A DNA stretch of 44,151 nucleotides from a virus: IMG/VR virus record IMGVR_UViG_3300009788_000056, positions 1-44,151 of that record; one strand, written 5' to 3'. The notes below the pieces were generated by a model, which ran no database searches, had not been told where the DNA came from, and saw nothing but the letters and a program-made list of their open reading frames with translations. Shown piece after piece: positions 7,095 to 10,185 of the stretch (the stretch's first letter is position 1; every line of letters begins with the position of its first letter). Made by a program: the position numbers and the translations under genes.

Positions 7095-7700
7095 ATGGAG
7101 AAAAAAGAAAATAAAAATAAACCAAAAGTAAAAGAAACTACAGTATTAGTTGAACCTATCAATTTATCTATAATTAATTTTAAGATAACTGGAACAAGCC
7201 CATTATTAATGGATAAGTTTCCTGATGAGGCAAAGAAGCAAATTACAGAGAAACAAATGGGTAAGAGCCAGACAAAGAAGAAACCAAGAGATATTGATAA
7301 GGAAACTTTAGAGGCAGTACATAGGACTCAAGATGGAACTATAGGATTCCCAGCAATAGGATTTAAAGCTGGGTTAATCGAATCAACATCTTTTATCGGA
7401 GATAAGTTCTTTTCAAAGAAGTTACTAAAAGGTATTCAGATTGTAAATTCTACAGATGGATTAGTACCAATCGAGTTTAAGAAACAAGATATATTAGAAC
7501 ACAGTATTCAAAGTAATACGAAATATACACCACAGTTTCACGAATGGAGTTGCGTTTTACAAATACAATTTGATCAGAACAACATATCAAAAGAAGATTT
7601 GGCAAACCTAATAAATTACGCGGGATTTTACTATGGTATTGGTATATGGTCTCCAAGATGTAAAAGTGGAGGAAGTTATGGAATGTATAAACTCGGTTAA
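7095..7700 (+). CDS. Conserved phage-type protein (PLLM...GFPA family)
   Basis: A 201-residue soluble protein with TGTSPLLMDKF near residue 35, IGFPAIGFKAGL near 80-91 and GIGIWSPRCKSGGSYG near the end. I know this pattern from phage and mobile-element proteins of unknown function, usually followed by a protein with an FEWDD motif, as here. The pair often lies in replication/recombination regions. A strong AAAGGAGG site precedes the ATG. Function uncertain. Confidence 0.6.
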   Translation: MEKKENKNKPKVKETTVLVEPINLSIINFKITGTSPLLMDKFPDEAKKQITEKQMGKSQTKKKPRDIDKETLEAVHRTQDGTIGFPAIGFKAGLIESTSFIGDKFFSKKLLKGIQIVNSTDGLVPIEFKKQDILEHSIQSNTKYTPQFHEWSCVLQIQFDQNNISKEDLANLINYAGFYYGIGIWSPRCKSGGSYGMYKLG

Positions 7701-8139
7701 AACATTTAAAGCAAGAACTGGTGCGCCATTTAAACAAGATGAGGCACAAGTTATTGGAGAGACTTTAGACGAAATTCGTAAAAAGAATGGAGGAAATCTT
7801 AGAAGTGAAGAGATAGTTAAAGAAGCTAAGATTAAGAAGAACCCATTGCACGAACATTTTGAATGGGACGATACAGTTTGCGGAGAGCAACACAGACTAA
7901 ATCAAGCAAGAAATATTACCAGTCACATAGTAGAAGAATTAGTTGTAGATGGAAATCCAATAGAGCAGAGGTCTTTTTTAAGTGTTACAAATCAAGAATC
8001 TGAAATAGTATATGTAAGCTTAGAAGATGCAATTGTTAATATCGACTATAAAAAACAACTATTAGACAAAATGATAACTATGATGGAAAATTTGACGGTT
8101 ACAATGAAACTTTTTAAGATAAAAGATTATCCTAAATAA
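7678..8139 (+). CDS. Conserved phage-type protein (FEWDD family)
   Basis: The ATG at 7678 lies just after a GGAGGAAG site and overlaps the previous gene, giving 153 residues. The stretch PLHEHFEWDDTVCGEQHRLN followed by QARNI is the recognisable signature. It partners the gene at 7095. It is the last plus-strand gene before the pentamer-phased region and faces the recombinase gene. Confidence 0.6.
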   Translation: MECINSVKTFKARTGAPFKQDEAQVIGETLDEIRKKNGGNLRSEEIVKEAKIKKNPLHEHFEWDDTVCGEQHRLNQARNITSHIVEELVVDGNPIEQRSFLSVTNQESEIVYVSLEDAIVNIDYKKQLLDKMITMMENLTVTMKLFKIKDYPK

Positions 8140-8157
8140 CTATTACTATTACACTTA

Positions 8158-8415
8158 GTTGGGCTTAGTGCCGTTGCTGTTTTGTAAAGTTACGTATTGT
8201 TTTGTAAAGTATCGTGTAGTATTGTCAAGTAAAGATTTAAAATTTTGCCTTTTATTTTTGAGGCAAATTCATATTCAATGTGACGTAAAGTATCGTGATG
8301 TTTTGTAATGTTCGGTATGGCGTTGTGCTGTGTTGTTTGGTAAAGTAGAGTTTAGTAGAGTAAAATATAAGTGTTGACCCGTATTGTGGGGTAATGTTGT
8401 GTTCGGTGCTGTATT
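8158..8415. repeat. GTNNN pentamer-phased array in the convergent intergenic region
   Basis: In this gene-free stretch GT dinucleotides recur every 5 bp on the plus strand. Block 1: 11 consecutive GT at 8179-8229. Block 2: 16 of 17 positions from 8280 to 8360. Block 3: 8 of 9 from 8371 to 8411. A short prelude has GT at 8158, 8168 and 8173. Phase slips by one base between blocks, and a hairpin separates blocks 1 and 2. The three bases between GTs vary, so this is not a simple satellite. Half-turn spacing suggests a protein-binding array, such as a replication, partition or recombination site. Confidence 0.85.
8244..8267. other. Hairpin between the two GTNNN blocks
   Basis: TTTGCCT (8244-8250) pairs with AGGCAAA (8261-8267) around a 10-base T-rich loop. 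It sits in the 46-bp interruption of the pentamer array. It may be structural, or a terminator for transcripts from the left. Confidence 0.5.
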
Positions 8416-8428
8416 ATAAAGAAAGTTT

Positions 8429-8447
8429 GGCGGAACTATAAACCGCC
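8429..8447. terminator. GC hairpin after the recombinase gene
   Basis: GGCGG (8429-8433) pairs with CCGCC (8443-8447) around a 9-base loop, 7 bp beyond the recombinase stop. It is conspicuous in this AT-rich sequence. No clear T-run follows, so terminator is a guess; a protein-binding site is the alternative. Confidence 0.4.
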
Positions 8448-8454
8448 GTTAATA

Positions 8455-9126
8455 TCAATCTTCAAGATATTGCCTTAGCTCTCCACCACCTATTTTAAGA
8501 TATTGTTCAGTTTGAGCAACGGTTGCATGCTCTAAAGCATCTTTAATAACTATCATACCAGCAGGTGTTTTAATCTTCTTAGCTAAATCAATTGCGTAAC
8601 TATGTCTGAAGTGGTGTGGATGTGGATCGCTTCCACCAACCTTAAACACTCCAGCTTTAAAACAAACATCACGTACAATCTCCCAACATCTTTGCCTTGA
8701 TAAGTGACATTCGGCTTTATATGGACTTTCCAGTATATATGTATTCAGTTCTAATTTTTTAGATTCGACATAATTTTTTAATATATTTAATGTTTTTTGA
8801 TCCATTGCTTTTCTAACTGTTAAATCTATTCTTTTTGTTTGGTAGTGTTCTACACCATCTTTACCAATATACTTAAGTTTCTCACCATTCTTTCCAATTA
8901 CTTTTTTAGACTTTTTTAAGATATGCCAGATAATATCCTTGTTTTCAAAATCAATATCTCTAACTTTTAATTGTAATAACTCACTTATTCTTCTACCGCT
9001 TTTCCAGAGAAGTCTTATTAGAACCCTATCTCTATCGCTTTTACAAGCTGCATAAATACTTTCTCTCTGGCCTTCTTTAAAGAAACCATCAAGATCTCTC
9101 ATAACTTTACTACTCCATTCCTCCAT
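8455..9126 (-). CDS. Tyrosine recombinase / integrase
   Basis: A 223-residue protein with the phage-integrase catalytic set: Arg in SGRRISEL (R46), HHFRHSY (H171, R174), LEH (H200) and QYLK (Y209). It catalyses site-specific strand exchange through a 3'-phosphotyrosyl intermediate. It is compact, lacking a large N-terminal arm-binding domain, like archaeal XerA-type and viral integrases. It lies alone on the minus strand behind the ATPase operon, facing the GTNNN array, with an 8-6-8 inverted repeat just upstream. It could integrate the element or resolve multimers. No second att site can be seen without the host genome. Confidence 0.9.
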   Translation of the reverse strand: MEEWSSKVMRDLDGFFKEGQRESIYAACKSDRDRVLIRLLWKSGRRISELLQLKVRDIDFENKDIIWHILKKSKKVIGKNGEKLKYIGKDGVEHYQTKRIDLTVRKAMDQKTLNILKNYVESKKLELNTYILESPYKAECHLSRQRCWEIVRDVCFKAGVFKVGGSDPHPHHFRHSYAIDLAKKIKTPAGMIVIKDALEHATVAQTEQYLKIGGGELRQYLED

Positions 9127-9243: not shown

Positions 9244-10185
9244 CTACTCGCCATCGCCAACCTCCTTAAAACCTTTCATTTTCTCGTAGTCTTCAATACT
9301 TCTCATGGAACGCCTGATAGTATCTGCTGTTACTCCAATCTCCACACCAATTTGACTATGGGTCAGTCCCTTATTTTTCAATTCTAAAATTCTCCGCCAT
9401 CTTTCTATCCTTTCTCTACTAACTTTATCACGATAACTTTCTGTTTCAGTATCTACATCTTCATCTTTAGTCCTAGAATCCAATTTCGCTTCTTGATACT
9501 CTTTCCAAACCTCTTTAGGAACAGGAGGAATCTTTGTGTAAAACCAGTAGCATTGTGTGTATTGTTCAACCCTAACAGATTCGCCCAGTGTTCTTTCAAA
9601 CACTCTTTTATTCTTCCACCTTTTAGTTTTAAGTTTATAATTCTCATCAATGTGCCACGGATCACGGCAATCTTTGTCGTCGTCCCTTTTATAGAAAATC
9701 GCCAGTCCTCTGATTGGCACATGCACCCAATATTTAATCATAAAGTTTCTAAAATTCTCTGCAAAATTCTGGAACCTAGGCATCAATAAAGCAGTACATA
9801 AATGATGACCTTCTCTATTCACATCATATAATTCATTTAATTTTTGTTGTACTTTGTCATGCCACTTATGTTTATGTAATCCCCTCGAGGCTTCATCTAT
9901 ATGTAAAAATGAATGTATCGGAAGCTCCATATATTGTTTTTCTATTTGTGCAGAATTAGGTATAAAACAAATATTTTTATCAAAATCATAATCATGGTCA
10001 ATCATAGTACCAAGTATTGCCGCAGCATTTGATTTTCCACATCCTGGATAACCAGTAACAGCAATCACTACATGCCCCTCATTTCGTAAATCCTTCCTAA
10101 TTTCACTGACAAATATTTTTAAGTTTGGGTCTAAATTTTTAAAAAAATCTGGATCAATAACTTTTATTTTTTCTCTAACACTCAT
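9244..10185 (-). CDS. P-loop ATPase with C-terminal HTH
   Basis: A 313-residue protein with Walker A GYPGCGKS (45-52), Walker B FLHIDEAS (about 93-100) and a C-terminal segment (about 260-305, LTHSQIGVEIGVTADTIRRS) that reads as a helix-turn-helix. The DVNREGHH and LMPRFQNF segments recall Zot/HerA-like and archaeal viral ATPases. It could package DNA, open an origin, or act in partition; the HTH implies site-specific DNA binding, possibly to the nearby array. It is the last gene of a three-gene minus-strand operon. Confidence 0.75.
   Translation of the reverse strand: MSVREKIKVIDPDFFKNLDPNLKIFVSEIRKDLRNEGHVVIAVTGYPGCGKSNAAAILGTMIDHDYDFDKNICFIPNSAQIEKQYMELPIHSFLHIDEASRGLHKHKWHDKVQQKLNELYDVNREGHHLCTALLMPRFQNFAENFRNFMIKYWVHVPIRGLAIFYKRDDDKDCRDPWHIDENYKLKTKRWKNKRVFERTLGESVRVEQYTQCYWFYTKIPPVPKEVWKEYQEAKLDSRTKDEDVDTETESYRDKVSRERIERWRRILELKNKGLTHSQIGVEIGVTADTIRRSMRSIEDYEKMKGFKEVGDGE

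Follow-up and report, generated by a model that had tools for sequence, protein, structure and literature searches.

A GT grid between convergent genes

What could be the function of a tract in a viral genome in which GT recurs every 5 bp while the bases in between vary? The DNA analyzed here was IMGVR_UViG_3300009788_000056, positions 1–44,151, and this whole stretch of 44,151 nt is referred to as the window. When the GT positions were mapped, 35 GTs were found in three blocks on a 5-bp grid from 8179 to 8411. GT occupied all 11 units of block 1 (8179–8229), 16 of the 17 units of block 2 (8280–8360; the exception at 8320 is GC), and eight of the nine units of block 3 (8371–8411; the exception at 8376 is GA). 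The blocks are separated by phase slips of 51 and 11 bp, each equal to 1 modulo 5, and both the counts and the one-base slips given in the preliminary description were exact. Three extra GTs at 8158, 8168, and 8173 lie in an earlier phase. The array region contained 31 GT-GT pairs at lag 5, whereas 5000 dinucleotide-preserving shuffles gave 6.9 ± 2.3 pairs with a maximum of 15, and its longest GT run was 11, compared with 8 or fewer in the shuffles. No comparable GT grid was present elsewhere in the window, and no Rfam family matched the array.

The array lies between a gene on the + strand (7633–8139) and a tyrosine recombinase gene on the − strand (8455–9126). It was confirmed to be non-coding and not a simple repeat, and to sit between convergent genes beside the recombinase, as had been noted. 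An origin as coding sequence was rejected because the period is 5 and the block spacings are not multiples of 3. The recombinase is short (223 aa) and matches just the catalytic part of integrase families. A P-loop ATPase with a C-terminal HTH is encoded at 9244–10185; a scan of IMG/VR for close relatives of this protein found none.

A RAMP gene family accompanies the arrays

IMG/VR was scanned for ten GTs spaced 5 bp, which gave at least 119 stretches. Among the matches listed were some microsatellites and many long arrays with GT and one further base fixed and two bases variable; the fixed-core classes among them were GTC/NN, GTT/NN, GTG/NN, GGT/NN, TGT/NN, and CGT/NN, and the arrays listed consisted of blocks with short conserved linkers between. 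An all-against-all comparison of the ORFs from 60 array loci revealed one gene family in 44 loci, which includes window ORF 7095–7700, and a second in 13 loci, which includes window ORF 7633–8139. No genes of other array loci clustered with the recombinase or the ATPase-HTH gene.

ORF 7095–7700, just upstream of the array, matches phrog_4652 (E 1e-22), a family whose function is not known, and no Pfam family above the cut-off. As a single query it found the Vipr chain of SUSP1 in PDB 36pp (E 1.2e-7), and a family profile built without SUSP1 found the same chain with E 1.5e-22; the two proteins share 29% identity over 186 aa. Its AlphaFold2 model (pLDDT 86, pTM 0.77) retrieved type III and VII CRISPR subunits in Foldseek (E 2e-5), and VIA-align gave a best Z of 11.3 over 145 residues with a Csm-complex chain of the Csm3 kind. 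Since all the top fold matches were Csm3/Cas7-type RAMPs, a Cas7/Csm3-type RAMP fold is predicted for this ORF. Three glycines close to the C terminus (G177, G181, and G196) are invariant. A search of GTDB found no close relatives of the window protein.

VIPR (Viral Interference Programmable Repeat) is a virus-encoded CRISPR relative described in 2026 (PMC13142463 / bioRxiv 2026.04.26.720920). Its parts are Vipr, which is a small viral RAMP, the accessory protein vap, and guide RNAs called vrRNAs, each of which has 9–16 GGY/NN units followed by a structured tail (PMC13142463). Vipr holds its guide with a glycine-rich loop and a thumb. The NN bases recognize double-stranded DNA by pairing, with one target base skipped per unit (the 1-nt skip rule), and the system silences competing phages; in SUSP1 the arrays give rise to RNA that is bound by Vipr (PMC13142463). 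The skip rule was demonstrated for SUSP1 and may not define every type of VIPR. We found that the SUSP1 arrays carry the same GT grid, in the form GTNNG, that is, GGU/NN.

The profile of the first family, hereafter Vipr, detected members in 48 of 57 array loci and in none of 162 control loci, which comprised 120 random unrelated viral loci (1.03 Mb) and 42 microsatellite-GT loci. Because the profile was made from array loci, the weight of this association is carried by the controls. Two short contigs, L121 and L122, encode a version of ORF 7095–7700 that is 81% identical and retain the vipr-vap-array synteny. Their GTNNN array occupies the same place as that of the window with different spacers, so that the grid is conserved in relatives. 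The VIPR locus of L121 and L122 is flanked by clusters of 8–15 tRNA genes.

Because the co-occurring gene family is homologous to SUSP1 Vipr and is predicted to have a RAMP fold, it is very likely that the window locus is a VIPR-type system of a virus or provirus and that the GTNNN grid is its vrRNA array. The locus resembles the type II VIPR of SUSP1 in its homologous RAMP, its two-gene vipr-vap organization, its viral setting, and its intergenic pentamer array on the vipr strand with several vrRNAs. The Vipr homologue is predicted to have an RRM core, a vap gene is adjacent, and the 11, 17, and 7 pentamers in register agree with the ~9–16 tandem units of VIPR arrays. The two systems differ in that the window core is a fixed GU rather than GGY, which is absent, with three instead of two variable bases per unit; in addition, no relationship of the window vap to SUSP1 vap1 was found. 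The paper gives the core as GGY or 'a related consensus' (PMC13142463), and GU/NNN may already be among the types covered by that wording.

The preliminary description had interpreted the 5-bp step as half-turn phasing of a filament-forming or cooperatively binding protein on DNA, at an origin, a partition centromere, arm-type recombinase sites, or a RadA/SSB loading strand. A DNA-level element of this sort would account for the strictness of the spacing and for the adjoining tyrosine recombinase, and the sign of the GC skew switches across the convergent genes at 8.5–11 kb. However, this switch follows gene direction. Moreover, the arrays track the RAMP gene across viruses, and the homologous arrays of SUSP1 are transcribed and Vipr-bound (PMC13142463). 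We therefore regard sites for a filament-forming DNA-binding protein as a very improbable explanation, and none of the four proposed elements gained support. What survives of the proposal is a functional, non-coding element and an oligomerizing protein, since assembly of a protein along nucleic acid is the most likely basis of the 5-nt step, whereas half-turn phasing on duplex DNA is not supported. The earlier remark that no named element has this pattern has been overtaken by the naming of VIPR vrRNA (PMC13142463).

A decaying or neutral pentanucleotide satellite is hardly credible. Fixed-period repeats are common, and 42 loci of the first scan were themselves treated as microsatellite-like; none of these 42 contains a Vipr gene, GT is held in the window while three bases vary freely, and the position of the array is conserved in relatives. 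A selfish-repeat origin was rejected because the arrays associate with the Vipr gene.

Organization of the putative VIPR locus

With the array taken as that of a VIPR-type system, the + strand carries the vipr gene, the vap gene, and an array that would encode about three vrRNAs. The vipr gene (7095–7700) encodes a RAMP homologue of 201 aa, presumed to be the vrRNA-binding effector subunit. The vap gene (7633–8139), whose true start may be ATG 7678, belongs to phrog_15946, the 'LHxxFEWDNxxAGExYRxxQAR' family found beside arrays in 13 loci, and has no Pfam domain above the cut-off. PADLOC contained no defence family for vipr or vap.

The repeat tract of putative vrRNA 1 (8158–8233, + strand) has 11 in-register GUNNN units (8179–8233) preceded by a few out-of-phase units, and is homologous to block a of L121. 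Its 3' tail (8234–8267, + strand) is AT-rich and contains a predicted terminator-like hairpin at 8244–8267 (−9.7 kcal/mol) that does not clearly surpass shuffles (z −1.5); this tail aligns with the tail of the first L121 block. A leader-like motif, ATTCATATTCAA (8267–8278, + strand), precedes block 2 as well as block c of L121. The tract of vrRNA 2 (8280–8364, + strand) comprises 17 units, 16 with GU and one with GC. Read as codons, its triplets give DKIDFNSMVAVLKRLRK, and the contiguous 30-nt target predicted for vrRNA 2 is GACAAAATCGATTTTAATTCGATGGTTGCT. The tract of vrRNA 3 (8371–8415, + strand) has seven in-register GUNNN units (8381–8415) preceded by GTGTT GACCC. A possible tail follows (8416–8447, + strand), whose hairpin, GGCGG (8429–8433) with CCGCC (8443–8447), is no better than shuffles (z −0.02).

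By analogy with SUSP1, ORF 7095–7700 would supply the small RAMP and ORF 7633–8139 its accessory protein, and the grid would be transcribed into about three vrRNAs, in each of which a 3' tail comes after a series of 5-nt units. The Vipr subunits would align along the RNA, one per unit, gripping the fixed GU and leaving the remaining bases of each unit exposed for pairing with target DNA. Genes of competing mobile elements would be the expected targets of binding and silencing by the complex. For the window locus, transcription, RNP formation, DNA binding, and silencing are all inferred from this analogy.

Arrays with and without a third fixed base

A complete second scan of IMG/VR, which excluded the fixed-third-base classes by design, gave 32 stretches. 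GT alone is fixed in the arrays of the window, L121/L122, and about eight further viral contigs. In the Vipr tree the GU/NNN members do not form one clade: the window and L121 fall in a poorly resolved group of 13 with GGU/NN, GUC/NN, and GUU/NN members, and L016 (GU/NNN) is sister to L091 (GGU/NN). The tree suggests that GU/NNN arrays may have evolved on more than one occasion, possibly through freeing of the first G of GGU.

Several loci deserve description. L094 (IMGVR_UViG_3300038424_000145, record G001) has a 17-unit GU/NNN array with an L121-like tail (GTTACGCTTCTCC..AAGAAGGG). No Vipr gene was found on the entire 16.9-kb record, and the array is possibly an orphan or satellite-borne vrRNA. 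L012 has, at 7889–8428, four ~150-bp copies of 20–24 GTCNN units each, which share an identical 38-bp linker and differ in their NN bases. In many GTC/NN and GTG/NN loci (L012, L024, L028, L034, L045, L063, L081, L087, L106, L118, and others) the GT strand is opposite to vipr, which is not the case in the GU/NNN loci or in most GGU/NN loci. Mycobacterium phage LastJedi (L125) and Gordonia phage ODay (L124) also encode Vipr homologues, both of which carry the annotation hypothetical protein; in LastJedi the gene lies between repressor/Cro/antirepressor genes and excise. There is no GT grid near either gene, and therefore their vrRNAs, if any, use another core.

The free bases of GU/NNN units behave as neighbors

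In the GU/NNN variant all three free bases might be read, so that the joined triplets would represent an uninterrupted stretch of target. Since guides copy their targets, bases that are adjacent in the target are expected to show natural dinucleotide bias even where the guide separates them. This was evaluated with 381 de-duplicated GU/NNN units from 10 contigs, using column-shuffle nulls and the dinucleotide odds of each contig; the units are not 381 independent observations, and the pooled result should be weighed as one from 10 contigs. The three pairs predicted to be adjacent by a contiguous reading gave z values of 2.62 (p3-p4), 2.94 (p4-p5), and 3.54 (p5 to the next p3), with a combined z of 5.35 over the 10 contigs. 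The 16 control pairs had a mean of −0.19, an sd of 0.97, and a maximum of 1.72. The junction signal was positive in nine of the 10 contigs, and it fell to z 0.68 when the junction was scored as lag 2 and to 1.50 as lag 3. An earlier offset scan without de-duplication was noisier, with control offsets reaching −3.7 and +3.3. For the junction of the window itself z was 0.39, or 1.85 with another segmentation and without de-duplication; the window by itself does not provide enough array sequence to prove the code.

The GTx/NN arrays served as a positive control. Their N1-N2 pairs behaved as neighbors (z 4.96), whereas N2 to the next N1 gave z 2.5–2.6 at lag 2 and −0.6 to −1.7 at lag 1. The test recovers the published 1-nt skip without knowledge of any target. 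In both the GTx and xGT classes, NN best fits codon positions 1–2, which agrees with the published wobble-skipping. The 1-nt skip signal of xGT/NN arrays was not significant (z 0.7).

The unit triplets also resemble codons. When all six reading frames were compared, that of the unit triplet (frame +0) ranked first in 18 of 30 array stretches. The codon likelihood of this frame was higher than that of column shuffles (z 3.18). Peptide-like translations were obtained from the triplets of the window (DKIDFNSM), G015 (VEHEFLMRFPDANFDDD), G013 (LSGNGIRRALQSPSIFETSDVL), and G001 (KEEELQEIVIKAVEKRY). The codon-usage and neighbor tests are post hoc, having been devised after these translations were seen; the controls were not tuned. 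A plain stop-codon test on the guide triplets was weak (p 0.06). In G013 (L265/L312) two vrRNAs have their last seven target-specifying units in common and unrelated units upstream, and the sole differences in the shared units are two unit-final bases, 3 target bases apart. Such a pattern would be expected from guides that record synonymous differences between related targets.

An ordinary VIPR array, in which two bases per unit are read with a 1-nt skip and the third free base is no more than a relaxed GGY position, is the principal alternative. The skip rule is the published one (PMC13142463) and was recovered here in GTx/NN arrays, the composition of position 3 is unlike that of positions 4 and 5 (p ~0.002), and the searched collections yielded no contiguous target. 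On the other hand, the free bases of GU/NNN units correlate with both neighbors as if adjacent, across the GU, and not at lag 2, and the frame +0 likelihood lies above that of the shuffles. A skipping array therefore appears rather unlikely. Because the joined triplets have the nearest-neighbor statistics of natural DNA across the fixed GU, and these favor a contiguous target over the 1-nt skip of SUSP1, we consider it probable that the GU/NNN variant reads contiguous codons, one whole target codon per unit with no skipped base. One unit would then usually correspond to one codon of the target gene on the sense strand.

Searches for targets

Searches of viral and genome collections and of phage records, as well as a search with the shared seven-unit stretch, revealed no target for any GU/NNN array. 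Local searches of ~2.6–5.1 Mb with skips of 0 to 3 returned self matches only or nothing above shuffles. An exact xNN scan with ten units of vrRNA 2 gave no match in IMG/VR and two in GTDB, both of which failed on extension; with seven units of vrRNA 3 it gave more than 120 chance matches. Exact scans with ten units of L016 and with the shared seven-unit stretch of L265 gave no matches, and translated or contiguous guides found nothing in phages, PHROGs, or Pfam.

Relation to other programmable and repeat-binding systems

The predicted effector fold (Z 11.3) and the proposed holding of a guide by repeated subunits relate the window locus to the Cas7/Csm3 backbone of Class 1 CRISPR-Cas, which differs in having a period of 6 instead of 5. 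The locus has no repeat-spacer CRISPR array: a repeat search of 8100–8460 found short degenerate families only and no identical repeats with unique spacers of ~25–40 nt. No other Cas family was found among the selected window ORFs scanned. A 5-nt period in RNA bound by a protein oligomer also occurs in the (G/U)AGNN repeats recognized by TRAP (trp RNA-binding attenuation protein), which differs in its protein, in its fixed number of triplets, and in the absence of programmable bases.

VIPR has been proposed as a CRISPR ancestor and a minimal programmable DNA binder, and the present loci add virus lineages far from SUSP1 as test material. If the contiguous reading is true, three bases would be read per unit, which is 50% more information per subunit, and the footprint would be fixed at 3 target bases per subunit. 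The change of rule would be directly testable and would depend on which positions of the guide unit are fixed, and the GU/NNN variant could plausibly represent an intermediate on the way from a gapped code to the contiguous one used by CRISPR.
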